Assembly (NCBI GenBank): GCA_964036195.1
Contig: OZ038453.1
Location: forward strand, 19,009,206-19,073,205
Direction: 5' to 3'
Length of the DNA: 64,000 nt
Source: Sphaerolaimus hirsutus
Lineage: Eukaryota; Nematoda; Chromadorea; Monhysterida; Sphaerolaimidae
This document shows positions 2,468 to 37,903 of this stretch, one piece after another; position 1 is the stretch's first letter, and every line of letters starts with the position of its first letter. The notes beneath the pieces were generated by a model. It saw only the letters and a program-made list of their open reading frames with translations. It ran no database searches and had not been told where the DNA came from. The translations under genes were made by a program, and so were the position numbers.

Positions 2468-2562
2468 TTATATTCAAACCATTTTTATGAAACACACCTG
2501 CTGCCAATCAGATAGACAGTGAGAAATATTGTGATAGACAACCATGCAAATTCAGTGAAAAC

Positions 2563-8718: not shown

Positions 8719-8722
8719 TAGT

Positions 8723-8911
8723 GGTAGTGGGGATGATTTTTTGTCATGGCAGATAAATTGTCATGGCATGTACATTACAAGTACGAATTTCGCTCCCGGC
8801 CCCGAGGACATTGAGCCTCGCTCAATGTCCTCGGCCCTTTGCAAAATTCGTACTTGTAATGTACATGCCATGACAATTTATCTGCCATGACAAAAAATCA
8901 TCCCCACTACC
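8723..8911. mobile_element. near-perfect palindromic element, copy 1
   Basis: The arms start GGTAGTGGGGATGATTTTTT and pair along almost their whole length. The centre is GAGGACATTGAGCCTCGC plus its complement. The outer ~42 bp and the central ~30 bp match the copy at 43085-43272, but the ~25 bp of stem between them is a different sequence that is still self-complementary. There is no coding capacity and no clear target duplication. Confidence 0.85.
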
Positions 8912-9605
8912 CCAAAAATTACTTTTTGTCTAAATTTTCTGTTTTTTAGTCCCTCGGTAGAAACGCAACTCAATTTATGCGCGCAGCGGGTGTGTAAAGT
9001 TGTGAAGCGGGTGAACCCGTAATGTTCATGTTTCGGTCAGTTTCGACCACACTCAAAAATACCATGCGTTGGATTTGTACAGATGTACAAGTATTTATTA
9101 TACCCCAGAAGGGAACGCAAGGCAACAAAACAGCCTCGGCTCTGAAGGCCACCCTTCTGTAGCCGGGGGTATCTTTTAGAGGGGGTTTTCATTTGAAAAC
9201 CCCTGCTTCTTGAAATGCTCAATGTATGGCGTCAAAATTATTAACTTATTTATGGCTCGGAATTACAGGAGGCCTGCACGCGGCCCGTGCTGCACACTAT
9301 TAATATAGTGACTAACTTCCTGTACCTTTTGCTACTTTTTTATTGCTACAGAAAAAACAGAAAATGTGAAACTTTTTTACGGTCAAATTATTTCAAAGGC
9401 GGACATTTAGATACCCTTAGATAGCACAATCTTTATAATAAAATCATAGTATCTATGTACTTTACTTTTTTGTTTATGAACCTCCTTTGTTAAAGTTTAG
9501 CGTTCACACCTTTCACTTGATGATTTGAACAAGGAAAAATAGGCTTTTTCTTCACGTTTACCAAAGTTATAAATAAGAATACTAATGGCAGGTCTTATAA
9601 ATTTT
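8912..9605. other. no gene seen
   Basis: Short open frames on the minus strand (8970-9222) show no domain. The sequence is AT-rich and leads into the first gene of the 9.6-12.5 kb cluster. No terminal repeat matching the right side of the Polinton module was found here. Confidence 0.4.
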
Positions 9606-10229
9606 ATGCAGAATCAGATTCACGGTATATTTTGAACTTATCTTACATATTCTCATTTGTTTTCATGTTGAATTGTTTTTAGGTGAAGTAAGGCCCGTAA
9701 ATGGAATTTTAAATGGAGCAACTTTTTTTGAATGGCAATATCGAGGAAACTGGTTTGAGCACATGATTACGTTGAATGTGACCCTTTTGCCTGGCAATAT
9801 GGTTCCTCTAGGTGCATTTGCACAAGTTACGTTGAGACCGGTGAGAATACGTTCTTTTGAGAGATTTTTATTGTTTTGAGTTTGAATTTGTGATATTTTC
9901 AGGGTGATGGTCACTGTTTAATGTTGGAAATAAGACCTGTTTCGCCAGTTTTCTCATTTACAACAACTGTAACAGACTGTGTCCATTTTGGAAATTTGAG
10001 AGCTGGAGAACCAACATCATTCAATGTCGGCAAAATTCTGGATAGACATGTTCTTTTGGGACTTTCGAATGTGAATCCAAATGGCAGAATGTTGCATTTT
10101 GGGACAGGCGCTTTCTTACGTGATAATTCGATCATTATCCCTATAAAATTAAGAATGGTTGGCTCATATGCTGAAAGACTAGAGGTAACTTTGGCTAAGA
10201 CCAAACCAGAACGCCGTTTTACTTTCTAA
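9606..10229 (+). CDS. small paralogue A (167 aa, unknown function)
   Basis: Three exons, 9606-9624, 9683-9840 and 9903-10229, join in frame (504 nt) with GT-AG introns of 58 and 62 bp. The start is the ATG at 9606; the tiny first exon ends in phase 1 and restores the frame of exon 2. The protein is rich in predicted beta strands and has no signal peptide or membrane segment. It shares with genes B, C and D a pattern of aromatic-rich strand, 'V.L.aLP/LLP', a phase-0 intron, then 'G......l.p'. I do not recognise the fold; a small beta-sandwich or capsid-decoration-like protein is possible but unproven. It is the first of three tandem plus-strand genes. Confidence 0.7.
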
Positions 10230-10372
10230 TTACGGCTTACGGTCAAAAATATTGCGTTCCGTTCCCACGGTACATAGGTGTGATAAGCTTTGTTTACCTT
10301 TCTGAGTTGCATTTTTGTTTTGTGCCGGTTTTCACACTGTTTTACTTGGCGAAAGTGCAGCTCTCATTAAAC

Positions 10373-10975
10373 ATGACAGAAACAACTTCAAAGACGTCTA
10401 AAAGGACGCTATTTAATACTGAGACGGGGGGGTGGAATTTTTTTGGAAAAATAAATGGCGAATATGTTCACATTTATCTTCAAGCATTGCCCCCAATCGG
10501 TGAAAAAAGATTAGTTGGGACAATTTCCATGGTACGTGGTTACACATTTTTCGTTTTAAATTGCATTTTTAACTTATTTCTATCAATTTTTTGGGATTTG
10601 ACATTTTTTATATAGGATGACGCTGGAAGATGCAGTGTTTATGTCAGTCTAAACCCGGATACTTTCACAGTGGTCAAATGTCAGACTTTGGATTTTATTT
10701 GTCATTTGTCACATGAATGCCCATTTGCCTTTGGGTTGGGCTCAATTCAAAACACCAATATAATTATGATGGTTCGGTCGATGAGGGAGGAAAAATTGCT
10801 TACATTGAGGGGTCGAACATCAGTTTACAGGGATATCACAAACAAATTGCTAATTAATTTGGATTTTGAGGAAAAGGAAAAAAATGAATTGACAGTTTAC
10901 GACATTTCCCCAGTTTCAACGGAAGTTGTTTCTGTGCTAGCTAATGTGATTGACTCTGTGGTGGAAAATGTATAA
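10373..10975 (+). CDS. small paralogue B (172 aa, unknown function)
   Basis: Two exons, 10373-10531 and 10616-10975 (519 nt), are separated by an 84-bp intron in phase 0. The ATG at 10373 is preferred, although the frame is open upstream to 10280. After a short basic, threonine-rich N-terminus the protein has 'GGWNFFGKINGEYVHIYLQA', then 'LPPIG.KRLVGTISM' just before the intron, the same layout as paralogues A, C and D. No transmembrane segment lies within the chosen start. Function unknown. It lies 143 bp downstream of A in the same orientation. Confidence 0.72.
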
Positions 10976-11112
10976 TCGAACATTTATGGTTACCTATTCT
11001 AGGTTTTGCTGATTTTATCAGGGCGGTTTGTGTGTTCGTTGTTTTAGGTTCATTTACAAGTTATTATAGGGTTAATCGGATTTTACCCATTACTGAAGAA
11101 AAAGTTCTAAAA

Positions 11113-12538
11113 ATGTCAACCTTGTGTCGACAGTATGCGCCCGGGTTTAAACGCTTGGCGCATTACCAGTTTGCCGAAAATGGGGAGTGGAGACACCAGG
11201 GTGTTGTTCAAGGCTTTCCAGTGACCATAACTCTAAAAGCATTGCCTATATATCCGAATGCTGACCCAAATCAACGATTCCACGGAACTCTAATTACTGT
11301 AAGTTATTTATAAACGTTTTACGGAAAGTTTGAGGAATGTGAAGGATTTTTTATATTTTCGAGGTTTCATTTTGACATTTTTCGTGGAACCCCGAATAAA
11401 GTGTTGAATGTATAATTGAAAAAGTTCGCAGGGTAGAAATGGGATAGTAATGTTAGGCATTTATGACAATATGGGGGAGCATCCAGGTTGCAATCCCTGA
11501 CTCTGGAAAGTAAAAGCATGTGCTAAGATTAATGATATAAAAGCTCCATAAGAAAATAGAACCACCCCCTTTGGCGTCAACTCCAAAGGAAAATAACGCC
11601 AAAGCAACATACACTCAGGCCGCTTACCCCCCAGGTCAAAGGAAAATAGCGCCATGGACCTATATTGCTTTGGAGGTGTGGGGCCAAGCGACCCTGAGTC
11701 TATTTTGCTTTGGTGCTATTTTGCTTTGGAGCTGGTCCCAAGTGTCTTCTCTCTATTTTGCTCCGGCGCTGGAGCCAAGCGCCGTGATGGTATGTTGTTT
11801 TGGCACTATATTGCTTTGGAGCTGGCGCCATTTGCTCTGGGGCTATTTTGCTTTGGAGCTGACCCCAAGTCCCTTCTCACTATTTTTTGCTCCGGCGCTG
11901 GAGCCAAGCGCCGTGATGGTATGTTGTTTTGCCACTATTTTGCTTTGGAGGTGGCGCCATTTGCTCTGGCGCTATTTTGCTTTGGAGCTGGCGCCAAGCG
12001 CCGTTACACGTTTTTGCTCTGGGGGTATTTTGCTTTGGATCTGGCGCTAAGCGACTTGGCTTGGCTTTATTTTGCTCTGGGGCTATTTTTGCTTTGGAGC
12101 TGCCGCTAAGCGGCGTGAGACTATTTTGCTCTTCGCCGTGACAGCTGTGACGTAACACTATTTTCCAAGCGCCGGGGTGCTTTTACACGCTTTTCATTAA
12201 TCTTCACACAGATTTAAATGCTTTTACGGAGTCTGGGAGTGCTCCTAGATCGAGTTCAACCAACTGATCTAACAGTTTATGGAGAAATGAACCCAAAGGT
12301 TCCATGTTGCTATTGTATAGCTGATATTGGAGGTTCAAAAATAATATTTTGTATCAGTGTAAATGGAAATGCCAGGGTGAAAATTAAGGCAGTCACTGAG
12401 AAAAATCCAAGTGGAATGATAACCCATTCATTTACATTGAAAAATCTCATAGAGACAAACGTTGCTTACTCGGCGTTAAGTGGTGATGCAAGTGAGACAT
12501 TTTTAGAGCCTGAAGCCAGTACTTCAGGTAATAAGTGA
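11113..12538 (+). CDS. small paralogue C (176 aa) with fold-back intron
   Basis: Three exons, 11113-11298, 11432-11486 and about 12249-12538, sum to 531 nt. The first intron (phase 0) sits where paralogues A, B and D also have an intron, after 'RFHGTLIT' and before 'GRNGIVMLGIYD'. The second intron is 762 bp and is a fold-back element. The acceptor at 12248 restores the frame, but a second acceptor 33 bp downstream (after CTAACAG) is also in frame, so the junction is uncertain by 11 codons. No signal peptide or membrane segment. Function unknown. Confidence 0.65.
11487..12248. repeat. fold-back element forming an intron of gene C
   Basis: The left arm (gtaaaagcat...aagattaatg region, 11487-11560) pairs with the right arm (12180-12248). 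The interior is a tandem array of 'ttttgctttggagctggcgc' units. The arms carry the 'CACTCCCAGACTC..GTAAAA' motif also found at the hairpins at 24902 and 47192. Long frames across 11571-12158 are translations of the array, not genes. Confidence 0.7.
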
Positions 12539-12767
12539 TTATTCGGGCTTTTTTTCATTTTTCTACCATAAATGCTTGATTATCTCCCCCTCAGACAATT
12601 TATTTTTCTCTGCAAAAATGCTTATGTTGGGGAAGTTTTCAAGTATTTAGGGTAATTTCATAGGGGTGAGAAAAAAACTTTATCAATTACTAGAAAAATA
12701 TTTTATTTTTTGGTTTATTCTGTGATTAAACACAGTTTATAATTACATCACTATAAGAAATAAAAAA
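12539..12767. terminator. convergent 3' region between C and D
   Basis: This 229-bp gap separates two convergent genes. It is A/T-rich and contains poly(A)-signal-like sequences such as AATAAA-type and ATTTTATT runs on both strands. No other feature is seen. Confidence 0.3.
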
Positions 12768-13295
12768 TCACCCAGTTAATTTCACAATAATTTGTATATT
12801 CTCATTTTCTACGACATGATGCAGAATAGAAAGTGAAATTTTTTCATTAGAGCAATTAGTAATGCGATATGCAACTTCCAAATTATCAATTGTTCCAATT
12901 TTTTGGGCAAACCCATGCATTGAGTCCATATGTAATACCTTATGCTCTGAGTTTCCAGTTACATTGGTTGGTTTTGATGGGTAGATATTTGCCAATATAA
13001 TACCATACTGATTGCTGTTCTGAAAAGTTGGGAATGTAAAAATACAAAAGATGTTATAAGGAGATATCTACACACCTTACCGAATCAAATTCAACCTCGG
13101 GCTGTGCTTTAGTCAATTTTGCAGTTACTGTCCCTTCGGCCATAAATAGAATACGGAACAGAATTGAATAAAATCCTAGGGGCCCTTTGTATGTCGTGTT
13201 TGTAGAATTTGAGAGGATGTTGTCTAGAATATAACATGAAATGTGATTTTGTAAAAGAAAAAGAAAAAAAGAAAACATAACATACTTTTTGACAT
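12768..13295 (-). CDS. small paralogue D (134 aa, unknown function)
   Basis: Three minus-strand exons, 13286-13295, 13081-13223 and 12768-13019 (405 nt), with introns of 62 and 61 bp. The 10-nt first exon (ATGTCAAAAA) ends in phase 1, as does the tiny first exon of paralogue A. The intron after 'PEVEFDS' is phase 0 and lies at the position shared with A, B and C, followed by 'YGIILANIYP', which aligns with 'GIVMLGIYD' of C. The protein is shorter than its paralogues at the C-terminus. It is convergent with C and in line with the downstream minus-strand gene. Confidence 0.65.
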
Positions 13296-13557
13296 TTTTC
13301 CACATCCGTTTTTTAGCTAACACGATCAAACACGATTTCTTATTCACAACTGTTTTGTATTCACACCTTTTCTGACGCCGTATTTACACCTTTTTATAGC
13401 CCTTGATAAGAGGGGAAAAGAAATAGGGGACAAAAATATAAGGTAATGAGGTGAAATTTTCTGGGTGGCTTTCCTATTACGCTTATTTAATTTATTACCT
13501 TAGAAATTTGGAATTTATTTGAATGTATCTCACCTGGAGAGCAGTTTCCAGTTTATT

Positions 13558-16500
13558 TTAGTACCACTGGCGATTTATTCCTTCCTCTTCACTGATTGCG
13601 TCAATATCTAGCTTCCCCAAAATTAATTTTGTGTTCCGTAAATTTTCTGGTGGTACACGAGCATTTTCCATTTCTCCACAAGACAAGCATCGTAAAGTTA
13701 AAATATGAGCTCGTTGATCTAAACACTGACCATTGCATCTGAGTTTAAAATCAATTTGACAAATTTAATAAATTCATTCATATTTATACCAGTCTATTCA
13801 GCTAAAAGTGATGAAAACTGAAAAGGTGGTTTTCTATGTTGAACTAAAATTACCTTATGTAAAATATTTTCCCATTTGATGCTGGGTACATAATTTGTAG
13901 TTTTTGTTTTTGCACTGCACTGCGACAGTGCTCTTCAGATGAGAGACAATTCACACTATTTTGAATTGTAGTGTGTAAATGTATGAAGCGTCCATCTGGA
14001 ATTCGATCTGTAATAAGGTGGTTTCGCATTTATTTTTTAATGATAGGGGGAAGATGATTTTACTATAAATAAAAAGAGAATAGAACCTGTCATCACAGAT
14101 TTATTTTCTAGCTCTTCTGTTTTTTCCTCAATTCCTTGTTTATCGCAGGCAATACGTATCCTGCTTTTTAAACATCCACCATCTGTTTCTGTGTGACTGA
14201 CAATATGCATAGGCGGCATTTTGTCCTTTCTCAGCCAAAAAAATATAGTAACAGATCTTTAGGGCAATACCAGACAATCTAAAAATGTAAAGTAAGGTCG
14301 CAATCATGATGGGTTTTTAGCGCTTGGCGTTGGCGCTAGAGGTAATGCAAAAAAGTATATTTAAGCGCCACAGGAACAATGTGACAAACTGTTAAAGTAT
14401 CATGGCCGCTTTTTGCATTGGCGCTCACGAAAATGGTAAGGGCAAAGTTGTTGGCATTATTTTTGTAAATGACGCCAGGCATCATTCTTGCCACAGAAAA
14501 ATTGGACACCATCCCCCTCTATTTTCTATGAATATAGGAAGAAAATACTTACCCTCAGGATTTTTCTGTGCCAAGAATGATGCCTGGCGTCATTTACAAA
14601 AATAACGCCAACAACTTTGCCCTTACCATTTTCGTGAGCGCCAATGCAAAAAGCGGCCATGATACTTTAACAGTTTGTCACATTGTTCCTGTGGCGCTAA
14701 AATATACTTTTTTGCATTACCTCTAGCGCCAACGCCAAGCGCTAAAAACCCATCATGATTGCGACCTTACTTTACATTTTTAGATTGTCTGTGGTTACCA
14801 CCTGGCAGCAGTGTGTCCCATTCACTCCAATACCGCCCAATTCGTTGTAATGATCATGGGCCATAAGCGGATTAAATGTATCCGGTTGATACACAGCTTC
14901 AGTCATTTCCCCATTTCTATTTTCATAAGTTCTTCCATAATTTGGTCGATTGTCATAGACTGTAGAAAAAGATTTTTATTTTGAATGCCGACTATATTTT
15001 ACAGGGGTTTCTAGTGGGGCATGGCCCTAAATACTTAGGACATTGTAAAATTTGGACTTGAACGTGTGCATTCCATGGCAATTTTTACTTTGTTTATTTT
15101 TTTACAAACCTGGTGGTGGTCTTCTCTGGAAAAATGGTTCATTTGTTGGAGCTGCAAAGTTTGGTTCTACCTGTAATGCTGGGTATGACGTAGATATATG
15201 CACTCGTCGGGCAATTTTGATGTTTCTTTCCCAAATCTCAAGCATTTCTGAAATTTTTATGCATTTATATTATAAAAAAATGGATGAAAACTCCACTTAT
15301 TATACATATAAGAATGAGAATAAGAATAATATGCCCAATAATCAAAAGAATATAACCTGGCGGGTTTATAGCTGGTGCAATCACTGGAACAATTGATCTT
15401 ATTTCTGGGGCAAAATCAATTTCGTTGGCTCTGTATATTGGATACCAGGGCGCAGACTCATTTTCTGAAACAATCGTCTTTTTCGGTTGACTTTCAGTGA
15501 TTTCATCAACATCCATTCGATTTGTGTTGTTTTCTTTGTTCAATATTTCTGAGTTCTGGGGGTTATCAGAATCTCCCACGGTTGTGTAGAACAAATCTGG
15601 GTTGTCATTTTCAGTTTCCAGCCATTCTCTGTCGAGGGTGGAATGATTAGTTTCATGAAGCAGAAGATCTTTTTGTGGGGTATATTGATTCTCCATTGAT
15701 TGATCTTGGTATTGTGCCTGATAGAGAGGGGAAATCTAAAATGGCTGAAATAGAAAATCAAACAAATATCCTCTATTTACTCAAATAATGGTATTTTCAT
15801 ACCCAAAAATACATCAAAAATAAGTACCGGGATTTATTTGAGTATTTAGAGTATTTTGAAGATAAATTTACAGTGTAAATTTCGTCGCTAAGTATTTTCC
15901 AGTTGACTAATTCATCGCCTTCAGAATCACTGGCTTTTCGGTTTTCTTGTGGCTGAGTGGATGAATTATTTTGTCTTGGAGGCATTGGTATCTTTCGATG
16001 GGGGGTTTCTGCATTTGTTAGTTGAATAGATATATAGATATATATTTAATGAGTATCCACGTTACTAACTACCTTTTTTTAGTTTCATTAGTACATTTTC
16101 CCGTGCAATTTCATCATCCTTGGATAGATTAGGACGCCTTTGAAAAGGCGCATCTTCATTTGACAATTCATCATCACTTGACTGCGCCCCATTTCTCCAT
16201 TTCCCGCTCCATACTTTGCCACCACCATCAATTCGTTTGGGTAATTCATGTGGAAATGCATTTTGAGTGAAAACTGGAGTTGTTGGTGGTGGTGGTAGCA
16301 GGCCAATTGCAGGATACCAGTGCGGATTCTAAAAAATTAAAAGTATTTATACTTATAATGTCCTCTCAAAATACGACTTTAAACTACACAAAAATAGACT
16401 TCATGGTGACAAATTACACCCTAAATTTATCCAGTTTCACGTTAAGGTGGGAGCCCAAGCGCAAAAAACCCCCATGATGCTTTTCATGGGGCAGTTCCAA

Positions 16501-17251
16501 GCAAGATTTACACAGCATACAAGCCAATCATGCTTTTTTGGCCCTGACCGTGAAACCAAGTGTTTTATTCGATTTCAAAAAATACGCCACTATTTTAAGG
16601 TAAATTTACCTGAGATGGGGTATGCAGCCCAGGTTCATCAGGTTGGATGCTGGTAGATTGGGCCTATGTTCAAAATGTGTGTGTCTGTCTGATGAAATAC
16701 TTATCAGGAATTCTAAAATTTATTTCCAACCTCCATTTCTTCCTGATTCTGACTTTGGTCGGCATTAATGAATTCCTGAGCGTTAATTGCTTCCCCAACA
16801 TATTCCATCCCCAAAAAAACCCGTTCTTCAGATGATAATTCTAATCCTTTTTCGGTTTTATCAATCAATTCAAGTGAAACGGTAGCTATGTTGTAAGTCT
16901 TCAATGCTTTTTCGGCTTTTTGTTCAGCTTTTTTTGCACTTTTGGAATTTTTTTTCTGAAAGTATTTATTTCTTTGATAGTTTCTGAAAGATCTTCTCTT
17001 TATTTTATCAAAATGAGATTTCAACTCTTTCAGTGCTGAAAAAAAAATTTAATTGAGCAATATAAAAATATATATTGATGGAATAAAATAAAATTACATT
17101 TTCCTTGGCTGTCTTGATTTTCCATCTCTTCAGGAGTCCTGAGTAGTGGTGGGTTCCTTGAATAATTGAGTTTTTGTGAAAAATGACAAAAATAAGAAAT
17201 AATAGGCTTCAGAACCAACTCTTGCCGAATCTGTTCCGTTGGTATAGCCAT
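13558..17251 (-). CDS. ten-exon gene, proline-rich 669-aa protein of unknown function
   Basis: Minus-strand exons: 17098-17251, 16731-17035, 16073-16328, 15863-16008, 15357-15735, 15110-15247, 14802-14959, 14087-14225, 13854-14007, 13558-13738. They sum to 2,010 nt and every junction keeps the frame. The ATG at 17251 opens the first exon. The N-terminal third has a basic, coiled-coil-like stretch (KKNSKSAKKAEQKAEKALK). The middle is disordered and rich in Pro, Asn, Ser and acidic residues (GLLPPPPTTP, FFQRRPPP). The C-terminal part is cysteine-containing, with a C-x3-C...C-x2-C arrangement (CNGQC...CLSC) that could bind zinc. If the 15249-15356 intron is retained, the frame ends in a strongly hydrophobic tail. 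The intron at 14226-14801 is a fold-back element. I recognise no family; a structural or scaffold role is only a guess. Confidence 0.7.
14226..14801. repeat. fold-back element forming an intron
   Basis: The arms from about 14272 and 14793 inward pair over roughly 250 bp each, starting cagacaatctaaaaatgtaa and including 'gcgctaga' and 'gcgccaatgcaaaaagcg' stretches. Donor CAG/gtggta lies just outside the paired arm and acceptor gaaag/GAC 45 bp beyond the other arm. Removing the whole 576 bp keeps the reading frame. Element edges and splice sites are therefore close but not identical. Confidence 0.75.
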
Positions 17252-18510
17252 TTTTCTTTTCCACTTTAAAGTGTTTGAAAAATAGCTGAGGTATTACCGC
17301 TTTATATAGAACCCCCGGGTCTGTGTATTGTTTTTCAGTGTCACTCAGTGACATGAGAATGAGGCCCCAATAATTCAAATTCATTTTTTGGTCAGACATA
17401 ACTTTCTCAGACATCTCAGACATGACTTTAAACAATTTAAGCAGTCTGTATCATGGAGTGTCACTTGACACTTAGGATATTTCAGAACAAACATGCAGAT
17501 TTGATAATAAAGTGGCTGGTTTATTGGCTGTTGTTTGAGGGAGTAAATATTTTGGCTGATTTTGTACCGCGGAGTACCAGTTGACAGTTCTCATATGTTT
17601 AACTTGGAGTGTTTTGATAAGAATTTAAGCTCTTTTTCATGAATTTCTGAAGAGTGATTTTTTACTTGAGTGACAGTAAATCTTGGCTGTAAGCATGTAC
17701 CATGGAGTACCATTTCACAGGTGCTAAATTTTTGACTTTGCGTGAAATATTTACTTTTCTGCATGTGTATTTGCTTTTAAATAGATGACAGCTGTTCTAA
17801 GGATGGAAAAATAGCGAACGTGTCACTAAGCTGTTCTTAACATCAAAAGGAAAGCGATAAGTGCCAGAAGACCCATGGCACTATGGGGGGTGCGGGGGTT
17901 GACGTCATAGCCAAAAATAGGGTCATTTCTCTGTACCGTCTGGCAACAATCTCCCTTGGCGCGCTCTCGCGCCAACCATGGCACTATGGGGGGTGGGGGC
18001 TTGACGCCATAGTCAAAAATAGGGGCATTTCTCTGTACCGTGTCGCGACAATCTCCCTTGGCGCGCTCTCGCGCCAATGCATGCGCCAATGCAAAAAGCG
18101 TTTCGCATCAGCCCCCCAAGGGCGATTGTCGCGACACGGTACAGAGAAATGACCCTATTTTTGGCTATGGCGTCAAGCCCCCTCACCCCCATAGTGCCAT
18201 GAGTCTTCTGGCACTTATCGCTTTCCTTTTGATGTTCAGAACAGCGAGACTTTACATCTTTCCGCCATTATTTCGTATAATTTTACATCACAGACTTCCC
18301 ACTTGAGTTCGTTTTTATTTATCTTTACTTAAAAAAGTATCTGTTTACAGAACAGTGGTGTCAAACATAGAAAACAAGTACTGATTATATCAAGACTATA
18401 ACAAAAAAGTTGTGAGACAGTGTGTACTATTTGCTCAAACTTGGTTAAAAAGACTAGTCTGCAATTGAATTTATGCTCAGTTATGAAACAAATCCAAACT
18501 TTTTGTTCTA
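17252..18510. repeat. intergenic region with fold-back element
   Basis: Between the divergent genes at 17251 and 18511 lies a fold-back repeat. Its left arm is 17833-17871 onward (aacatcaaaaggaaagcgat) and its right arm ends at 18241. The left side holds two direct units (17873-17970 and 17975-18075) of 'ggcactatgggggg...cgcgctctcgcgcc', while the right holds one, so the hairpin is asymmetric. Frames inside are repeat translations. The rest probably carries promoters of both genes, but I see no clear motif. Confidence 0.65.
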
Positions 18511-19132
18511 ATGGCAACTGGGAAAAATATGATCAGAATGTCACCAAATCTTGGTGAAACAGAAAATTTGCTTAATCAATATGTTTTATATGGAAATGAT
18601 ATTGTAATTCCAAAACCAGGGTTCCAGAATCCATATCAAATAGTGGCACCATTCATATGGTAAACTGTTAATCAATTATAATATTGAAGGCTTTTTTTAA
18701 ATACTGTTTTAAAAAAATAAAAAAATTTTAGGCGAACACCCAACTTTCGCGAACTCCAGAGAGCAAAAATTGCCCTGGATACTTTAAGGTTGATTTTTTT
18801 CAAATTTTCAATTTTTTAAATAAATATTTTTGTTTTCAGTCAAATTGTGGATCAATTTGCTGCTAGCAGCAACCCAATCACTGAAATAAGAGATACCAAT
18901 ACTGGTGGAATAGTCTATGAATTGTTCGGCTTTCAAAAGGCTAAAGCTATACCCACGGTTTTTCAAATAAAATATTTTTAAATGTGAAAATCGGAAAACA
19001 TATTTTTATTTCCAGGTGAACTCATTAACGGGCACATATGTTTTGAATCCGTATACTTTGAGAGATGTTGATCGTATTGCATTGGCTTATTGTCCAGAAT
19101 TATTTAAGGAATACACCGATGACGTATCTTAA
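18511..19132 (+). CDS. unknown 146-aa protein
   Basis: Four exons, 18511-18659, 18732-18788, 18840-18957 and 19016-19132 (441 nt), with introns of 72, 51 and 58 bp and every junction in frame. The ATG at 18511 is the first in the frame. The protein has no signal peptide or membrane segment and contains 'LLNQYVLYGNDIVIPKPGF' and a C-terminal acidic tail. I recognise no domain. It is the first gene of a plus-strand run that continues with secretory-pathway proteins; the next ATG is 177 bp downstream. Confidence 0.7.
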
Positions 19133-19309
19133 TTTTTGTGAAATATTTGATTTCTTATTTTTATGCATTTTTCTTATCTTTCGAAAAATATCCCAACTCG
19201 GTACTTTTGGAACACCTTATGTTTCTAAATGGCATTTTTCGGCAGTTTTGGTTAAAACACACATTATATTAGTATCACATTATTATAAATCCATAAAAAC
19301 AGAAGCAAA

Positions 19310-21345
19310 ATGAAGGGTTACATTTTCTTGCTTGTTGCTTTTTGTTATGTTGTTGAAACATGCCGGCGAAAAATTTCATGCGAGAAAATTGGCGAATTTT
19401 GTTGTCTTGAGGCGCATGATGAAACTGAGGGTTACTGTGATGAAAATGAATTGGTTTGGCCTGATAATTCTTCATTTTCAAGTTCTCATCTACTACAGAT
19501 TGATTTTTCTGGTTAGCAGATCTTAAAAATGTTTGAGGTGTTAGTATTTACAAGTGATAATTAATTTCTATTAAAGGTTGCACAAAACTGAACTGCTCTG
19601 GCATTGAAACTGCTTTTCCAAGTTTGAGGACAGTTGTTTATGAACGCCCTGGTGTTCATTTCCATACCCTGTAAAAGGACATGTAAAAAAGGCAAAAAAG
19701 ACATGTAAGGTGTAGAAGACATACAAAATGTACATGCCCCAGGTATCATTCCCCCCACAGAAAAATTGGGGCGCTGGCGCCAATGCAAAAACCGCTTGCA
19801 AAAATCTGCATGCGCTAGGGATCATTCCTCCCACAGAAAAATTGGGGCACTGGGGCCAATGCAAAAAAACATGCTTGCAAAAAATGTAGATGCGCCAGGT
19901 AGCATTCCCACCACAGGAACTTAGAAGCACCTTCAACCATTTTTTCTGTGCTAGGAATGATACCTGGCGCATGCAGATTTTCCAAGCAGTTTTTGCATTG
20001 GCGCCAGCGCCCCAATTTTTCTGTGGCGGGAATGATACCTGCCGCATGGAGATTTTTGCAAGCTGTTTTCCATTGGCGCAAGCGCCCCAATTTTTCTGTG
20101 GCAGGAATGATACCTGCCGCATCCAGATTTTTGCAAGCGGTTTTTTGCATTGGCGTCAATATCTGGCCCCAGCGCCCCAATTTTTCTGTGGCGGGAATGA
20201 TACCGACCGCATGCACATTTTTGCAACCCGTTTTTTGGATTGGGCCAAGCGCCCCAATTTTTTTTGTGGGAGGAATGATAACTGGGGCATGCATATTTTT
20301 GCAAGCGGTTTTGTACTGGCGTCAGTGTCCCAATTTTTCTGTGGTAGGAATGATACCTGGCGCATCTGACGCATGCACATTTTTTGCATGTTTTCTACAC
20401 TTTACATATGTTTTCCCAGTTTTCCATGTTGTTTTCCAGTGTCTGGTAGTGTTCCAGGGTGCCATTGTTTGGACCCGTGCCAGCATGAATTGGATATTCA
20501 AGGCGCTGTTTTTTGCAGTCGGTTTTTATCTTTTAAAACTTAAATGAAGTTCCTTCAAAAGTGGTGTGTGTTATTGCATTATCTGGTTTACTCAATCTAC
20601 TCTCTCAAAAACTACCTCTCAAATCTCCCCCGTTATATGAGCCTTGTAGGTAATCACTGTGTATTCCAACCCAATCCATGCAATGCAGGTACTACAACAT
20701 CCGTGACACCTACCAATGTGATGCCATCAACATTGCCATCGACTTCGGATGGGAAATCGGCACTTGTGATTACCCTTGGCGTTATGGGCGTTTTGAGTGT
20801 GGTCGTCAGTCTAATTTTCGGAGTTTTGATGTTGAAAAAGTTGGTTTTCAGGTCTCTATTTTTGTTGAAATTTCAGGGGTGAAAGTTGCTATTTTGAGTA
20901 AGTATCATACTAAGTGACATAAATTAGTTTCCCACTGATTTTTGTGAAATCGTGAAATGAACAACTATGAAAACTAGCATAACCTATCTGAATACCCATC
21001 CAAAAGTATACGATTTTGGTGCCCTTCGAGTATATTATATTTTTCACCTAGTCATCTGTATTTTGGGAAAATTTACTTCTCATAGCATTTTTCGAAAATG
21101 TTTCACAGACAACACACAAAAAGTCGCATTTAAAAGACCTGAAATAAGTTTGTAATATATAAATGAGAATTTTGCATCATTGTTGTGTCTTTCATTTCAG
21201 ATATAATGTTAGAGGTGTTCGCTTGTGTTGCCAAAATACCCCACAGGAAATGGAAAGTATTGCAAATATGGCATTTGAGTCTGAAATGCACGATCCTGCT
21301 GTTGATGAAAATTGTTTGCTGTTTTATATTTGGTCGCATTTTTGA
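19310..21345 (+). CDS. putative type I membrane protein, cysteine-rich ectodomain
   Basis: The ATG at 19310 starts a signal peptide (MKGYIFLLVAFCYVVETC). Exons 19310-19511 and 19577-19670 encode a cysteine-rich segment with N-glycosylation sites. A fold-back intron follows, then an exon near 20444 with a CHCLDPCQHE-type cysteine cluster. The frame at about 20640-20850 encodes 'NHCVFQPNPCNAG', a Thr/Ser-rich stalk and a single hydrophobic helix (ALVITLGVMGVLSVVVSLIF) followed by KK. The last exon, 21201-21345, joins in frame and encodes a cytoplasmic tail. The link between 20444-20540 and 20640 is not resolved, so this could be two genes. The architecture resembles cell-surface or viral envelope proteins, but no family is recognised. 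Confidence 0.5.
19671..20443. repeat. fold-back element forming an intron
   Basis: The left side (19671-19910) and right side (19940-20440) carry inverted copies of a ~60-bp unit ('gcgccccaatttttctgtgg', 'gatacctggcgcatgcaga'), about two on the left and six on the right. Donor CCCT/gtaaaagg and acceptor ttttcccag/T flank it, and the reading frame is kept. The arm ends (gccctggtgttcatttcc and the complement of cactaccagacactggaa) extend into the exons on both sides. Confidence 0.7.
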
Positions 21346-21597
21346 CATTCCACTTTAGAATGCCAGTATGCAGCATTTTTAACGCAGGAGGAGACAAACC
21401 TCTTGGTTGGCTACTTCGGCGTTTGATTGATTTGAATGTGATTTTACCCAGTTTTGAAAACCAACTGTTCTTTTTCTGTTCCAATTGTTTTCTTACCCCT
21501 AGTTTTAACGTTTGTCACTTACGTATCAATTTCTTGATTTTTGAGTTCTGGAAACACTCGTTTTTTTATTTTTAAATCGCGATTTGGGCTCTTCAGA

Positions 21598-23274
21598 ATG
21601 AAAGTTTGGAGCGTGTTAATTTTTGCCCTGTGGATGGTATCTGGTGATGAAACGAATGATTGCGCCGTTTTTTGGAGCGACAGTCACCGCGGAGCGTTAG
21701 CTCTTTAATTTTTCTGACGTTTGATCCCGCTGTGTCTTTGTTTCCGTGTTATGATAAATGCCATTTTTGAATTTTGCATTTTTGATCCTTTGCCAAGAAA
21801 ATATTGCGCATTGTATTTAAGACATAAAAAAAGCAAGTATTTGAAAAAACAGATGTGAATTCATGTAATTACGCCGGAATCTAACTTTAATGAAATCTCT
21901 ATGCTTTCTGGTAAATGTTTATCCTCACACAATTAAATGAACTAGGATTTTATTCGATTTACCGCAAAAATAACTCAATAGATAGTTCGAAATTCATCAA
22001 CGCAGGATCGCATATTGTCACAGTCTGCCCACAGACTTCAGCAATTTGAAACGCAACCTCGTCTACGTGAAAATTGAGCTCGATGGCTGTGTTCCGGGGT
22101 CGATCGGGGATATTTTTCTTGATAGAATTGTCTCCATAAATCCAAGGTTGACTGAAGAAAGTATCGACTTAGAAATTTGCAGTCCGTTGGAAGGGTCCGG
22201 CACGAGTTCAAGACCAGTTAGCTTGTGGTTTTAGTATCTATTCAATGTTCCCTATTTCCTCGAATTACCCCCCCATGATCCTAGCATCCTTGGTGAAGCG
22301 CGACCATTTATAAGTTTTACGGTCGTTTTTAGCATTTATAAGTCTTGGTGAAGTCTCTCCTGATAGTTCCCGACGCTTCAGCAAGGATGCTAGCATCATG
22401 AACATCTAGGTGAAGCGTGTAGAAGATGCTTCACCAAGATGTTCATGATGCTAGCATCCTTGCTGAAGCGCGGTCATTTATAAGTTTTACGGTCATTTTT
22501 AGCATTTATAAGTCTTGGTGAAGTGTCTCCTGACAGTTCCCGACGCTTCACCAAGGATGCTAGCATCATGAACATCTTGGTGAAGCATCTTCTTCACCCT
22601 TCACCTAGATTCAACGCGCTCTTCATGCACAACCAAAATGCGGAAAAGACTTCACACCCACCCTAGCTCATCCACACACTTCTCCCATCCAGACATTTCC
22701 GCATTCCGCATTTTGGTTGTCCATGAAGCGCGCGTTGAATCTAGGTGAAGCGTGTAGAAGATGCTTCACCAAGATTTTCATGATGCTAGCATCCTTGGTG
22801 AAGTGCGGGAAGTGTCTGGCGTGAAGATGCGCTGCGACCTTCACTGCGCACTCACACGGTCATTTCTGTTGTAGATATAGATTCGCTTTTGATTTTCCAT
22901 TGTTTATTCTATTTTTTATTCAGGTTTTTCAACCAACCGTTGGAATGGGTTTGACTGTGGGAAATTCGGCAATCCGAGACGCAACCGCCAAACCAAAATT
23001 AACGACCCAAACTGAAGTCCAGGTAATAAAAGTTTACTCAATAGTAACTGATTTACCTAGAGAATTGGACCCTGAAGGGGAAATGGTGGGTGGATACCTG
23101 TGAATAGCTCATTAAAAATTCTCAAAATCCCATGTTTTTAATTTTATGCTGTTATTTTTGCAGTATATTCCAAGTGTCAGACACGTTGAATATTGTCAAA
23201 GTATCCACTACCAAGACCGTGAATGTCAAGTCTATTATTCACAAAATCCGATTTATCAAGAGTTACCAGATTGA
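21598..23274 (+). CDS. small secreted or surface protein of unknown function
   Basis: A possible first exon at 21598 encodes a signal-like N-terminus (MKVWSVLIFALWMVSG). Exons 22006-22216, 22924-23022 and 23164-23274 join in frame (phases 0 and 0) and encode a cysteine-containing segment (YVKIELDGCVPGSIGDIFLD) and a C-terminus with 'SQNPIYQELPD', which contains an NPxY-like motif. The junction from the signal exon to 22006 does not fit by phase as I read it, so an exon may be missing. No transmembrane helix is visible between the ectodomain and the NPxY end. A large fold-back element fills the intron 22217-22923. AATAAA follows the stop. Confidence 0.45.
22266..22808. repeat. fold-back element within an intron
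   Basis: Arms built of 'gatcctagcatccttggtga' and 'cttcaccaaggatgctagca' repeat several times in both orientations. An inner hairpin at 22610-22740 is formed by 'aaccaaaatgcgg' and its complement. The element lies wholly inside the intron between 22216 and 22924 and encodes nothing. Confidence 0.75.
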
Positions 23275-23361
23275 AAAATAAATAGAAAAATATTATTTTC
23301 ATCTCAATATTTACTCGAATTAGTTCTCATGAAAACTTTTTGCTCGTAAGTACTGATCTGA

Positions 23362-23740
23362 AACCCCCATAGTGCTAGGAGCTGGCACTAAGCCTAACAT
23401 AAAATTCATGGGGTCTTCGAAGTCCGAAATAGTGCTTGACACATCACCACTTAGTTGGCGCACTGCCAGCAGTGATTGTTTAGGTGTTGTTTTGGGTGGG
23501 TCATTCCCCCATACAAAATAGCGCTTTATCACAAGGGCTTGAGCCTTGACATCGGGACTAGCCTCAATGCAAAACATTCTGGCGTTTTAGCGCATGGTGA
23601 CACATTTGTTCCACTATCACCAAAACAACTGTTGGGCCCAATCCAAAAAATCTCATAAGATTTTAGGATGCTACTTTTTGATCGGTATGCGGTAATCCCC
23701 CATGAATTTTATGTTAGGACTAGCGCCAGGGGCTGGCGCG
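23362..23740. repeat. fold-back element, intergenic
   Basis: Arms 'cctaacataaaattcatggg' and its complement pair across about 375 bp, with 'gcgccag' and 'gcgcca' motifs as in the other fold-backs. It lies between the genes ending at 23274 and starting near 23878. Confidence 0.65.
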
Positions 23741-23877
23741 ATGCCGCTTTCACTAAGAACACTAGAATCTATGAGATAAATTTATATTGAGATAAATGTA
23801 TATTTTTGAATTTATTTTTCGAAAAAGGTATGTTATGGCAAAAGAAAAGTTTTATGATTACATTACTTCTCTTCTAG

Positions 23878-26800
23878 CGCTCCAGCCCGGAACCAATTAG
23901 CACGACTGTTACTACCCCCATAATAGCTAACAATCAAAACAATGCGATTGGTGAAGTGACTGATTTCAACATGTGCCAAATGGAAAAATTAAATTTAAAT
24001 TCAACTCTAAATAGGCAGCTGCTCCATGTTTTGGAAGTAACACATAATTTAGAAAACTGTTATAGGGATCTGAACGCATCCAGAAAAGGTCATTTTTCAG
24101 TATATTTGTTATTTTTTTGATTTTTTATTGTTTTCTGGAATAATATTTCTTGTTGTTTACAGACTTGACTTTGTCAACTCATTTATTAACCCAATTTGAA
24201 AGGAATATGAACAAAATTGACACAAAATTAAATTTGACCGCTGCTAATTTGACTAATTGCTTAACCCACCAATTTCATTTAAACACTAATATTTCAAACA
24301 TGCACCCCAAGTATTTATCGGCTATACGTCAGAATGGTGAATTGAATGAATCGCTCAAACGGTGCTGGCAAACTTCCAAAGAACATCAAAAAGGTTCAAC
24401 CCTATGAATATTTTTGCTGAGATAATATTTTTAGGCGCATATTTCTATATTTTTTCAGCCGTTACCAACTCAACCCTATTGCTAAATCAATGCAATTTAG
24501 AATCAAAACAATGCCAGAATCAGACAAAAGCGATCAGCGGAAATTTGTCTAAGTGCATAGAGTTACAGAATGAGCTCAGATTGAATGTTGTAGCTTCTGA
24601 TGAAATGGAAAAAGGTAAAAATTTGTATTCAAAATCAGTATAGGCATTATTATTCGGTTAAACACATTTTCAGATTTGAGCGAAGTAAAGTCTTTATTGG
24701 AGAGTTGCCAAAATGCTTCTCTTCAAAAAGCCACAGCTTTGGAAAAAAGTCAAATCAGTTTGGGAAATTGCCAGCTCGAAAAAGATCATTTTTTGGCAAA
24801 TCTATCCCAATTCTATCCACAGTATAAGGAATTATTGTTAAATGTGACACAGCACAAATTCAATTTGACCCAATGTAGACAGGGGGCACTCCCAACTCCC
24901 TGTAAACTGTAAAGTAAAGTGTCAAATGTAATGTCAAGTGTAAAGTAAAGTGCCAATTCTTATGTAAAGTTCAGTAATAAAATCTCTTCTTTCTTATTTT
25001 GATTGGCACTTTACTTTACACTTGACATTACATTTGACACTTTACTTTACAGTTTATAGGGGGTTGGGATTGCCAGCAGGAAAACATTGCGCTGAAGCTG
25101 GCGGGAAACACTAAACATGCTGACTATACGGCTGCACTCAATATTCAAAAAATGTCTGCCAATAGCTGTGCTTCAGAGAAAAAAATTATCCGAAATCAAT
25201 TGGATAATTGCCTAATGAATTCAACTACTGCACTGGAAAATTCTCAAATCACTTTGGAAAAATGCCAGCTCGAAAGAGATCATTCTTTGGCCAATCTATC
25301 CCATTTCTATCCGCACTATCAGCAATTATTGTTAAACATGACAGAGCACAAATTCAATTTGACCCAATGTAGACAGGGGGCACTCCCAACTCCCTGTAAA
25401 CTGTAAAGTAAAGTGTCAAATGTAATGTCAAGTGTAAAGTAAAGTGCCAATTCTTATGTAAAGTTCAGTAATAAAATCTCTTCTTTCTTATTTTGATTGG
25501 CACTTTACTTTACACTTGACATTACATTTGACACTTTACTTTACAGTTTATAGGGGGTTGGGATTGCCAGCAGGAAAACATTGCGCTGAAGCTGGCGGGA
25601 AACACTAAACATGCTGACTATACAGCTGCACTCAATATTCAAAAAATGTCTGCCAATAGCTGTGCTTCAGAGAAAAAAATTATCCGAAATCAATTGGATA
25701 ATTGCCTAATGAATTTAACTACTGCACTGGAAAATTCTCAAATCACTTTGGAAAAATGCCAGCTCGAAAGAGATCATTCTTTGGCCAATCTATCCCATTT
25801 CTATCCGCACTATCAGCAATTATTGTTAAACATGACAGAGCACAAATTCAATCTGAGTCAATGTAGACAGGGGGCAATCCCAACTCCTTGTAAAATGTAA
25901 AGTAAAAGTCTCAAGTATAAAATCAATGCAAAGTAAAAATGTCAATTGTCATGCAAAGTTCAGTAATAAAATCTTCTTTTTTATTTTGATAGGCATTTTA
26001 CTTTGTATTTGACTTTTACATTTGACACTTTACTTTACAGTTTACAGGGAATTGGGATTGTCACTAGGAAAATATTGCGCTTAAAGTGGTGGGAGAAACT
26101 AAATATGGTGACTATACAGCTGCCCTAAATATTCAAAAATTGGCTGTCAATAGCTGCGCTTCTGAGAAAAAAATGATTCGAAATCAATTGGATAATTGCC
26201 TAATGAATTTAACTAGTGCAATGGAGAATTTTGTGAAGCATGAAAAACTGAATAGATCCAACTATTTACAATGGGAAAATGAAAGTGATTATTATGTCAC
26301 TAATTTGATCAAGTTAGAAGAAAGTTTGTCAGCGTGCCAGAGCGACTTATTCATGAGCCGAGTTGAAAATCAGAATCTCACTTACATGTATGATGTCATG
26401 GAGCAGCAGTATGAAAATTTATCTGGTGTCACTTCCGTAAAACGAGAAGTAAAATGACAAAGTTGAAGTAAACGCGCAGAGGGTATGTGACATGGAAATA
26501 ATTTATATGGAAATAAATTGACAAAAATGACTTGACAATAATTTCTCTTTGCTTTTGTCAATTTATTTCCCATGTCACCTAGCCTCTGCGCGTTTACTTC
26601 AACTTTACCATTTTACTTCTCGTTTTCTGGAAGTGCCCCCCTGATCGATTCTTATGCGTAGCCGAGCAGAAAGATTTTTATCTAAATGCTTCCAACTTTT
26701 TTGAGTTGCAGTGGCTTACGCTTAACACCTCTTGTATTCTGGGTGAAAATTTTAGTTGTCCGGTGTGTACCTTATTTTCAGTATCTCATATAAAAATGGA

Positions 26801-28655
26801 GAATTTTTAACCATCAGAAATATTGAACAAAATCATTTTTATATGAGTGAAAAATTCTGTTTATTTCAGTTACATTATTATTTTTAACAACACTAATAAT
26901 TTCAGCTCCCTCATGCACAATACTGGATTGGACCGTTGAAAATCGAAATGAAGTGGGAACAATTGCCAGGTAAAAACTGTTAAAACTAGTAAAAAAAGTA
27001 AAAAGTTAAAGAAATCTGAATTTTTTCAATTTCAGACTTGCTTGTGCAGATTATTGGCTCATTTTGGCTATTTACAACTCTGGTTTTAACTCCAATTGCC
27101 AAATTAATCGATCAGAAAATGCAAGAAACATCATTAAATGACACAAGACTTCAGCACTCCATACACAACTTTACAGAGATAAACTTGAGCAATATGGTTG
27201 CTTATGGAATAGTAAGTTTATTTTTGTAATTTTAGTAAGAAATATTACCCTTTGGTGTTTTATTTGATGATTTAAAAAATATAACATAATTTCTTGAATT
27301 ACCCCCGGCGGTTTTATTTTACAGCGTGAAAATTTTGAGGGGACAGTATGAAAAAAAAGGAATAATATCTATATATGTTTTATAACTTTTAGAAGCATAT
27401 TTAAGGTTATGGATTTCCCGAACCACAAATTCTAAGTGCCTATTTTGAGGTGGTATTTCGAGGGGAGTATTTTGAAGGTGGTATTCAGAGGAATTAGAGT
27501 ATTTATTAATAAATCATTTTCTCAGTTCTGGGTACTGTCAAAAATGGTCAATTTCATTTTTCGAAAATGCGCAAAAAATTCAACTTCCAATGAATTGATG
27601 ATTTTGGAGACGACCCCGGTGGAAACTGTCCAGGTGTCCTTCATAAATCCTGAAAATACCATAAAAAGATTAGAATGTTGTTTTATAAAAGTTTGATCAC
27701 TCAATTCAAAAATTTCAGGGTGGTCTGAGGTCCGGTGTGGTTTTTTAACCCCCAGCGCCAAGCCCCCCAACGATGCCAGAGAAAAATGGCGCTAAGCACC
27801 AGAAGCGCCATTCTTTTTTGGTTTGGTCCTACTCCCCAGCCCCAACGCTACCTTAGCGGTATTTTTGTCTGCCATCTGGAAGAAAATCCTTGACAACGCC
27901 GCTTAGGGGTATTTTTGTCTGGGGTGAGGAACAAAATGGTTGTCCTTGATCCCTCGCACTAGCATCAAACCAAAAAAGAATGGCGCTTCTGGTGCTTAGC
28001 GCCATTTTTCTCTGGGATCGTTGGGGGGCTTGGCGCTGGGGGTTAAAAAACCACACCGGACCTCAGACCACCCTGAAACTTTTGAATTGAAGAACGATGG
28101 CTCAGCAGTATTTTTATCCGGCGTCAAAAGCATTAAGCTGAAACTTTTGGATTAAAGAACCCTAGCTTAGCTGTATTTATATCTAGCGTCAGAAACAAAA
28201 GGTTTGGCGTTGGTGGTTGAGACTAGCGCCAAAGGAAAATGATGCCTCTGGCGCTTAGCGCCATTTTCTCTGGCGTCATTGGGACTTTCGCGCTGGGATC
28301 GAGAAAAGCGCCAGGGCCTCAGGACACCCTGAAAATTGTGATTTGAATCATCAAACTTTTATTAAAGGGGATTCTCTTTTTACGGTATTTTTAGAATTTA
28401 TGAAGGACTTTAGACTGATGAATTGAGAGATGTTTTTTCGGTAACAGAGTTCTCAGAAGTTTCTTTAATCCACCCCACAACATCTCAAATCCCTATTGGG
28501 CCGGCGCAGTCTACTCCAGGTGAACTATGCTCTCTACTATTTTTGTAGATCTTCGGCGAAATACGAAATTCACTTTTATTCTTACAGATCCGTCCAAAAT
28601 CCTGAAAGATGATGTGGGGGCTAAAAGGAAAGTTTGGTTCGCATCTGAAAACTGA
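23878..28655 (+). CDS. large repeat-containing membrane glycoprotein
   Basis: Exons that join cleanly: 23878-24088, 24163-24393, 24459-24614, 24674-24901. Repeated exons follow at about 25053-25395, 25547-25889 and 26044-26436, then 26634-26780, 26906-26969, 27036-27211, 27526 onward, and late exons ending at 28655. The ectodomain is coiled-coil-like with many N-x-S/T sites and regularly spaced cysteines. After a cysteine-rich block comes a hydrophobic helix (IIGSFWLFTTLVLTPIA) and possibly a second (about 27200-27560), then a short tail. The 5' end and signal peptide were not found, and splicing between repeat units is ambiguous. It resembles a surface or attachment glycoprotein in general architecture only; no family is recognised. 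If it belongs to the adjacent Polinton it may be an envelope-type protein, but a host surface protein is equally possible. Confidence 0.5.
24674..26043 (+). repeat. tandem exon plus hairpin-intron units (494-bp period)
   Basis: Two units, 24902-25395 and 25396-25889, are nearly identical at a 494-bp period. Each consists of a 150-bp hairpin plus one exon encoding 'NQLDNCLMN' to 'HKFNLTQCRQGA'. The exon at 24674 is an older, diverged unit, and the one at 26044 is diverged and changes sequence after about 26220. The third hairpin (25890-26043) is also diverged. The near-identity of the intron hairpins indicates a recent duplication or gene conversion. Confidence 0.9.
24902..25052. repeat. hairpin intron copy 1 (copies at 25396-25546, 25890-26043)
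   Basis: The sequence starts gtaaactgtaaagtaaagtg and ends with the exact complement, cactttactttacagttta. The pairing extends into the flanking exons (ggcactcccaactcc against ggttgggattgcc). GT at the left stem end and AG at the right stem end are at or near the splice sites. By my count GTAAAC is phase 1 and the acceptor shared by all copies (before GAAAAC/T ATTGCG) is phase 0, so the exact junction needs transcript data. Confidence 0.8.
26437..26633. repeat. hairpin intron
   Basis: Donor CTTCC/gtaaaacgagaag and acceptor cgttttctggaag/TGC are themselves mostly complementary, and the ~80-bp arms (gtaaacgcgcagagg and complement) pair between them. Removing 197 bp joins two open frames in phase 0. 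A similar fold-back with a 'ccgcaaaatgagaagtg' end lies at 62938-63140. Confidence 0.75.
27717..28330. repeat. fold-back element within an intron
   Basis: The left end is CAGGGTGGTCTGAGGTCCGG. Its complement ends at 28074, and a second related end (CAGGACACCCTG) lies near 28330. Interior sequences are 'agcgccattttctctgg' types. It separates the membrane-proximal exons from the last exons of the glycoprotein gene. Confidence 0.65.
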
Positions 28656-37902: not shown

Positions 37903-37903
37903 A

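Follow-up and report, generated by a model that had tools for sequence, protein, structure and literature searches.

The 64-kb window, the whole stretch of 64,000 nucleotides analysed here, holds hairpin-bearing insertions at five independent places within predicted genes, and the 47-48 kb region probably contains a sixth. The hairpins are genuine, and their ends are common to a single mobile family, CWG-GTGCCACTCCCAGACCCTGTAAAATG...CATTTTACAGGGTCTGGGAGTGCCCC-CWG. The copies are numbered below as candidate introners, each with its left triplet and the ends of the predicted intron where these apply.

9682-12538, plus strand: genes A (9682-10229), B (10373-10975) and C (11113-12538), intron position and phase compared by eye.
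11487-12248, plus strand: candidate introner 1, in gene C; CAG, then GTTGCAATCCC...GGGAGTGCTCCTAG; GT-AG, phase 1, 762 nt; only the ends pair.
14257-14801, minus strand: candidate introner 2; CAG, then GTGGTAACC...TTGCCCTAAAG; GT-AG, phase 0; arms 99% complementary.
19652-20457, plus strand: candidate introner 3; CTG, then GTGTTCATTTCC...TAGTGTTCCAG; GT-AG, phase 1; flanked by CTG at the left and CAG at the right.
24733-26230, plus strand: three 494-bp tandem units, each an exon plus a candidate introner.
24883-25079, plus strand: candidate introner 5a, an antisense copy; CAG, then GGGGCACTCCC...GATTGCCAGCAG; phase 0, GG-AG when cut at its ends.
25377-25573, plus strand: candidate introner 5b, a duplicate of 5a through tandem copying of the 494-bp unit; also in frame with the inner GT-AG pair 25396-25553.
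25871-26067, plus strand: candidate introner 5c, the third tandem copy, diverged, ending in CACTAG; frame open if cut at its ends.
26426-26643, plus strand: candidate introner 4; CTG, then GTGTCACTTCC...GTGCCCCCCTG; GT-TG, phase 1; identified by arms and frame.
47189-48114, minus strand: candidate introner 6 (likely); CAG, then GTGCCACTCCC...GTGCCCCCAG; GT-AG, phase 0; only the ends pair.

Genes A, B and C are probably paralogues with one common intron position and phase; as identity to gene A is just 15% (B) and 20% (C), this kinship is likely rather than proven. Among the three, only gene C carries a hairpin. When the elements were cut at their ends, the frame was open and continuing in all eight window copies, and each of them has 16-21 of its 25 initial bases paired with the opposite end. 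Of 73 inverted repeats, the 25 longest took in arms of the hairpins lying at 14.2, 19.7, 24.9, 25.4 and 26.4 kb. A separate hairpin scan gave 11 matches in the window and none in three shuffled sequences; it recovered the 47.2-kb copy and part of the 11.5-kb copy, and missed those at 14.2 and 26.4 kb.

The initial annotation had described at least seven introns here as long inverted repeats. In the copies at 11487 and 47192 about 10% of bases are cross-paired and only the ends pair, so these are not whole-length hairpins. Nor are the seven introns independent: 24902, 25396 and 25890 lie within the three 494-bp tandem copies and thus represent one triplicated insertion, which reduces the seven to five independent insertions. 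The fold-back at 47192-48115, which had been grouped with the others by its end design, fits best as an intron in a minus-strand frame. For candidate introner 2 two 3' ends fit, the acceptor first proposed at 14226 being likewise in frame.

The common end design seen in the window extends across the genome. The core motif gave 11,126 matches (5616 + 5510), compared with 58 (29 + 29) for the reversed control, although within the 64-kb window alone it is weak (19 matches at three mismatches or fewer, against a chance mean of 13.7). Genome-wide counts of 3' ends were 1987 with CAG and 1335 with CTG. Copies were sampled from contig C1, where 128 paired copies were drawn from 110 of 126 scanned loci. 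For sample 1 two near-duplicate loci (L008 and L019) were excluded; 6 of its 63 pairs had no single GT end, leaving 57 oriented copies, and removal of one duplicate junction left 56 for the exon test. Sample 2 consisted of 40 CTG-ending and 40 CAG-ending sites among the matches listed first, its CTG:CAG ratio thus being set by design; 8 of these 80 loci had no paired 5' end and were removed, leaving 72. Two apparent paralogous pairs with a common insertion (L067/L090 and L010/L011) were counted as separate copies.

Nearly all sample-1 copies (62/63) share internal sequence with another copy at an unrelated site. Like MITEs or fold-back elements they are short, with inverted ends or arms: 56 of the 57 oriented copies measure 113-475 bp, and in 59/62 sample-1 copies at least 12 of 25 end bases are complementary to the opposite end (median z -7.5). 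Base frequencies (n = 57) display the element ends within a C-CWG-G context, together with strong conservation of the inner motifs GTAAAATG and CATTTTACAG in both arms.

Left and right flanking triplets were identical in 84/128 paired copies. For the exon test, sample-1 boundaries were shifted to the closest CWG within 2-3 bases, which biases toward CWG; with boundaries unadjusted, triplets were identical in 32/63 pairs, and CWG was present at the left in 45/63 and at the right in 49/63. Sample 2, picked by its right triplet and blind to the left, had a left CWG in 63/72 and identical triplets in 51/72. A duplicated CWG triplet in the sequenced copies matches the target duplication described for the PIF/Harbinger-like NuwaI group in PMC4482050.

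Open-frame length revealed no in-frame excess among the 57 oriented copies; since long frames arose by chance in this test, a codon-usage score was used instead. It was trained on sample-1 genes, with one locus left out at a time for sample 1 and the whole set applied to sample 2. In sample 1, 21/56 copies were exonic, compared with 133/1919 random CWG sites from the same loci (p = 2e-10). A coding score of at least 8 was reached by 28/128 copies in frame, and by 3 and 2 when the join was shifted by 1 or 2. Exonic copies also follow the orientation of the gene: sense to antisense was 18:3 in sample 1 and 23:2 in sample 2, or 41:5 pooled (p = 4e-8). Of the five antisense calls, three are weak and may be shadows of sense coding.

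Removal of the elements restores conserved proteins. With four elements removed, BCKDHA aligned with 514 bits over four junctions and no gap at any of them; a one-residue gap lies about four residues past the third junction. Removal of the element and one CWG gave gap-free junctions in CNOT9 (238 bits) and ArgRS (115 bits). On C1 these genes lie at 8334994-8337685 (BCKDHA), 10595552-10596252 (CNOT9) and 8232777-8233477 (ArgRS). Pfam domains spanning a junction were Oscp1, 7tm_1, 7tm_2, Abhydro_lipase, Mak10, Aa_trans, Rcd1 and tRNA-synt_1d, of which the 7tm_2 and Mak10 matches only just exceed the cut-off. A BCKDHA paralogue on contig C2 is uninterrupted at all four element sites, and at one of them it reads CGC-CAG-ATG where C1 reads CGC-CAG-[element]-CAG-ATG, an insertion with CAG duplication. 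Genes A and B provide a weaker case of uninterrupted homologues, for candidate introner 1.

The hosts thus include ordinary conserved genes (BCKDHA, CNOT9, ArgRS, OSCP1, a lipase, a transporter and GPCRs), which leaves the proposed concentration in virus-like genes unsupported. A viral nature for the 9-27 kb genes was likewise not supported. Pfam gave no match above cut-off in ten window pieces, five of them from the 9-13 kb genes. The protein collection contained no relative of gene C, exon 60063-60461 or a polymerase piece, and among viral contigs neither of two queries nor an exact 23-mer from the terminus of the element had a match. Scanning the window with Rfam (gathering threshold) and for tRNAs likewise gave no matches.

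CWG duplication, exon enrichment, gene orientation and gap-free restoration of proteins make the copies look like introners, as had been suggested, and the inverted-end family, its hairpins and the uninterrupted paralogue agree with this. The family is a short mobile element present at thousands of genomic sites, inserting into protein-coding exons and apparently removed as an intron. Very probably the copies are introners derived from short, non-autonomous PIF/Harbinger (PHIS, NuwaI-like) DNA transposons, in which the element supplies the donor and its duplicated target supplies the acceptor. A Harbinger-type transposase would place the element into a CWG triplet (context CCWGG) and duplicate that triplet. 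The element's opening GTGCC, immediately after the left CWG, would then serve as donor and the CWG copy bordering its other end (as CAG) as acceptor, while the complementary arms would fold the RNA and bring both ends together. Because end-to-end excision would restore the coding sequence exactly, sense insertions in exons could persist. We infer removal by RNA splicing, use of TG ends and the type of transposase from genomic sequence.

Under this model a CAG target would yield a GT-AG intron and a CTG target a GT-TG intron, the latter apparently tolerated in this genome. The usual AG 3' splice site, which does not strictly define an introner, was replaced by TG in 6/18 exonic sense copies of the unstratified sample 1 and in 17/41 overall, where sample 2 is stratified by right triplet; CNOT9 and ArgRS are among the TG-ending cases, and BCKDHA contains GT-AG and GT-TG copies within one gene. 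GT-AG splicing at element ends leaves the TG-ending copies and the antisense exonic copies (BCKDHA site b and window copy 5) unaccounted for. That exonic sense copies so often end in CTG implies GT-TG introns or a hairpin-assisted route.

A removal blind to the AG rule could also take place in DNA. Harbinger elements excise precisely, and ciliates eliminate internal eliminated sequences from their somatic nuclei; a programmed, footprint-free somatic excision by a Harbinger-type transposase would leave a single target triplet regardless of which dinucleotides form the ends (GT-AG, GT-TG or GG-AG). CTG/CTG to CAG/CAG stood at 17:13 in exonic sense copies and 24:25 elsewhere (p = 0.64), so that CTG ends have not been purged from exons, as such a process predicts. 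It does not predict the strong bias that places the GT end toward the 5' side of the gene, and excision independent of gene orientation is at odds with this 41:5 ratio. Copies with CTG at the left and CAG at the right also outnumber the reverse 15:4 when pooled (p = 0.019), an excess that is not significant in either sample (6:1, p = 0.125 in sample 1; 9/37 versus 3/35, p = 0.11 in sample 2). We consider DNA excision improbable.

Slightly less probable still is the original proposal that the inner arm motifs are the splice sites and that arm stubs stay in the mRNA. These motifs look closer to ordinary splice sites, and their conservation in both arms is high; inverted-repeat symmetry by itself would maintain this. 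In-frame inner GT-AG pairs occur at 26437-26633 (within candidate introner 4), 24902-25059 (5a) and 25396-25553 (5b); of the intervals first listed, 26437-26633 thus holds, and 24902-25052 causes a frameshift. Given the in-frame pairs in 5a and 5b, antisense copy 5 may well splice at inner sites, and rare antisense copies generally may use the GTAAA and TTTAYAG sites of their arms. In the third tandem copy, however, the pair equivalent to 24902-25059 runs into a stop, the consensus ends would leave a frameshifting 37-base stub, and that stub would lie within conserved motifs, for example GAL-VKTDEQE in CNOT9.

Least probable of all, plain transposon insertions into dead gene copies or older introns would accord with the second BCKDHA copy on C2 and with the 82/128 sampled copies not scored as exonic, but not with four-insertion BCKDHA exons whose frames are open and whose alignment covers 369 residues (one TGA is flagged, at an exon end where an odd intron starts), the high conservation of the CNOT9 and ArgRS fragments beside the insertions, or the frame and orientation signals.

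For introners spliced at the element ends, removal would often rely on CTG, a splice end foreign to most organisms. In the survey by Gozashti et al. (2022, PMC9860276), many introners have TIRs and TSDs, most genomes possessing them show gene enrichment, and in some cases the introner contributes one splice site and its duplicated target the partner site; within animals and land plants, only two groups had introners, and both were animal groups. The present family resembles these in its repeated intron-making elements, inverted ends, target duplication and split origin of splice sites, and differs in its CWG target, in arms often paired over most of the element and in the many TG 3' ends needed. 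NuwaI elements of the PHIS transposons, as described in PMC4482050, occur mostly in animals and share the 3-bp CWG target duplication; in contrast, the present copies are short and non-autonomous, and the likeness lies in the target triplet. In Amoebophrya, according to PMC7789003, hairpin inverted repeats likewise join exon borders, with short direct repeats at the borders and many non-canonical ends, whereas the splice motifs there are highly variable and no family-specific inverted-repeat motif was detected; the present copies, in their thousands, have one end motif in common and a GT donor. The Fritillaria borealis report (PMC13326754) describes very many non-GT-AG introns, most of them AG/AC or AG/AT and bordered by YAY triplets. 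As in the present introns, the triplets at their two borders are of one type; they were shown by cDNA, whereas the GT-AG and GT-TG introns with CWG are predicted from genomic sequence.

These observations bear on the long-standing question of how spliceosomal introns originate, since one high-copy element displays successive steps within a single genome: insertion, target duplication, an element-given donor, a target-given acceptor and perhaps also the tuning of CTG into CAG, as if reflected in those CTG-target copies that carry a left CTG and a right CAG. The coexistence of GT-AG and GT-TG copies in BCKDHA offers a direct test case for the limits of the 3' AG rule and for substitution by a hairpin. 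On balance we lean towards the view that in this animal-like genome introns were made massively by a Harbinger-type element, splicing takes CTG 3' ends on hairpin introns, and CTG insertions are tolerated in core genes (CNOT9, ArgRS) and may later become CAG. If true, Fritillaria would be joined by a further animal that departs from the AG rule, here with the splice site set by the target triplet of a transposon.

In the window, at C4:19009206–19073205, inverted-repeat scans and folding confirmed the hairpins listed by the initial annotation, although at 11487 and 47192 pairing was limited to the ends. Its count of seven separate introns did not hold: those at 24902, 25396 and 25890 lie within 494-bp tandem copies and were therefore counted as one insertion. 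This leaves five insertions in predicted genes of the window, which also have ordinary introns, and a likely sixth at 47.2–48.1 kb. End-to-end removal kept the frame open in 8/8 copies.

Probable introner copies in the window and the borders obtained by removal at their ends (left, GT-end side; right, far side)
11487–12248, + strand: introner 1, GT-AG
14257–14801, − strand: introner 2, GT-AG
19652–20457, + strand: introner 3, GT-AG, left triplet CTG and right triplet CAG
24883–25079, 25377–25573 and 25871–26067, + strand: introners 5a, 5b and 5c, antisense, GG-AG
26426–26643, + strand: introner 4, GT-TG
47189–48114, − strand: likely introner 6, GT-AG

The fold-back at 47 kb contains a long GGGATC/GGGATT repeat array (47259–47820). 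Introner 1 interrupts an exon that is unbroken in the neighbouring genes A and B, which are probably paralogues of its gene (15–20% identity).

When 348.5 Mb in 762 contigs were scanned for GGCACTCCCAGAC with at most one mismatch, 5616 forward and 5510 reverse matches were found, whereas the reversed pattern gave 29 in each direction. Of 48 loci around exact matches on contig C1 (sample 1), 46 were used, two near-duplicates being dropped, and yielded 63 paired elements, 57 with a single GT end. Base frequencies defined the end consensus as CWG (CAG or CTG) abutting GTGCCACTCCCAGACCCTGTAAAATGCC on one side and CWG abutting GGGGCACTCCCAGACCCTGTAAAATGCC on the other, with C preferred immediately outside the triplet at either end, indicating a CCWGG target. 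Length was 113–475 bp in 56 of the 57 oriented copies. RNA folding paired at least 12 of the first 25 bases with the far end in 59/62 copies (median z −7.5 versus resampled sequence); as modelled, the element RNA would fold end to end. Sample 2, 80 new loci selected by right triplet and blind to the left one, yielded 72 paired copies, the left triplet being CWG in 63 and identical to the right in 51. Pooling both samples, all of whose loci lie on C1, gave identical flanking triplets in 84 of 128 copies.

The elements sit in exons, oriented with the gene. A codon score, derived from a handful of element-bearing genes and applied leave-one-locus-out, called 21/56 distinct copies exonic; among CWG sites drawn at random from these loci the figure was 133/1919 (P=2e-10). 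Over the 128 copies, 41 exonic copies were sense and 5 antisense (P=4e-8), and 82 did not score as exonic; a coding score of at least 8 was reached by 28 with the join in frame, and by 3 and 2 with the join moved by one and by two. A cruder open-frame test gave no signal.

At locus L031, the BCKDHA gene (branched-chain keto acid dehydrogenase E1 alpha subunit) carries four elements within exons; taking out every element together with one triplet gave a protein that matched the human enzyme at 514 bits, gap-free at all four junctions, with a one-residue gap about four residues past the third. Its paralogue on contig C2 (L049), with GT-AG intron borders by eye, continues unbroken through each of the four sites; site b is CGC-CAG-ATG there, versus CGC-CAG-element-CAG-ATG in L031. 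Matches also spanned junctions for CNOT9 (238 bits), cytoplasmic ArgRS (115 bits) and the Pfam families Aa_trans, Oscp1, 7tm_1, 7tm_2, Abhydro_lipase and Mak10 (7tm_2 and Mak10 barely over cut-off); AA_permease fell slightly under it (24.3 versus 24.6 bits), and for a number of further joined frames Pfam gave no hit. Metazoan-type proteins elsewhere in the genome included GPCR and FAT4-like cadherin matches which, with the ordinary introns of the window genes, point to a probable animal source. Within the C2 paralogue, one ordinary GT-AG intron holds what is probably a diverged copy carrying the family's end motif (L049 reverse strand, ∼2098–3220). Separately, L031 BCKDHA (reverse strand) has an intron-like gap without an obvious GT-AG pair between NFSATLK and CPIIFF, which may be a non-canonical intron of another type; the C2 paralogue is unbroken there (FAATLKCPIVFF).

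In the proposed mechanism, the donor would be the GT immediately 3′ of the left triplet, and the right triplet copy would provide the acceptor where it is CAG; a CTG target would produce a GT-TG intron. Sliding the boundary through the repeat gave no GT-AG for CNOT9, ArgRS, the Aa_trans pair, OSCP1, BCKDHA sites a and d or antisense site b; BCKDHA site c is GT-AG. Among exonic sense copies, 11 of 18 in sample 1 ended in AG and 6 in TG, and 23 and 17 of all 41 (sample 2 being stratified by right triplet). Exact right-hand ends genome-wide were followed by CAG in 1987 cases and CTG in 1335. CTG/CTG depletion in exons was not seen (CTG/CTG:CAG/CAG 17:13 in exonic sense copies versus 24:25 in the rest, P=0.64). 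CTG-left/CAG-right copies exceeded the reverse by 15 to 4 (P=0.019 pooled, neither sample being significant alone), which suggests tuning to AG. In several hairpins, the initial annotation had instead placed splicing at inner GTAAA sites. For copies 4, 5a and 5b this may be right, since each has an in-frame inner GT-AG pair, but the consensus inner pair leaves 37 bases and a frameshift.

The same annotation called the host genes virus-like, a label left unsupported for those at 9–27 kb, as Pfam, viral-contig and protein-collection searches found no relatives. Beside them lies a Polinton/Maverick-like element whose polymerase region is broken into several open frames.

Polinton/Maverick-like element and its Pfam matches
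31565–42957: the element
33854–34312, + strand: viral-type family B DNA polymerase (PF03175)
42334–42957, − strand: integrase core (PF00665)

Further long inverted repeats (17830–18245, 22274–22816, 27701–28090, 28753–29380, 43499–43742 and 62939–63147) did not closely match the end motif of the introners, and the window therefore seems to harbour several fold-back families. Another hairpin family has two ∼84% identical copies (8716–8922 and 43073–43279). A direct repeat (1–814 and 63184–64000; 97% identity, 63.2 kb apart) extends past both window ends, seemingly with the same short coding-like exon in each copy.

Introners (PMC9860276), hairpin introners (PMC7789003) and CWG-duplicating Harbinger relatives (PMC4482050) are already known, non-canonical introns are described in Fritillaria borealis (PMC13326754), and introners occur in mirusviruses (PMC12768974). 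No title or abstract opening among the matches listed, with subscription literature mostly outside the scope, described CWG introners with CTG acceptors.
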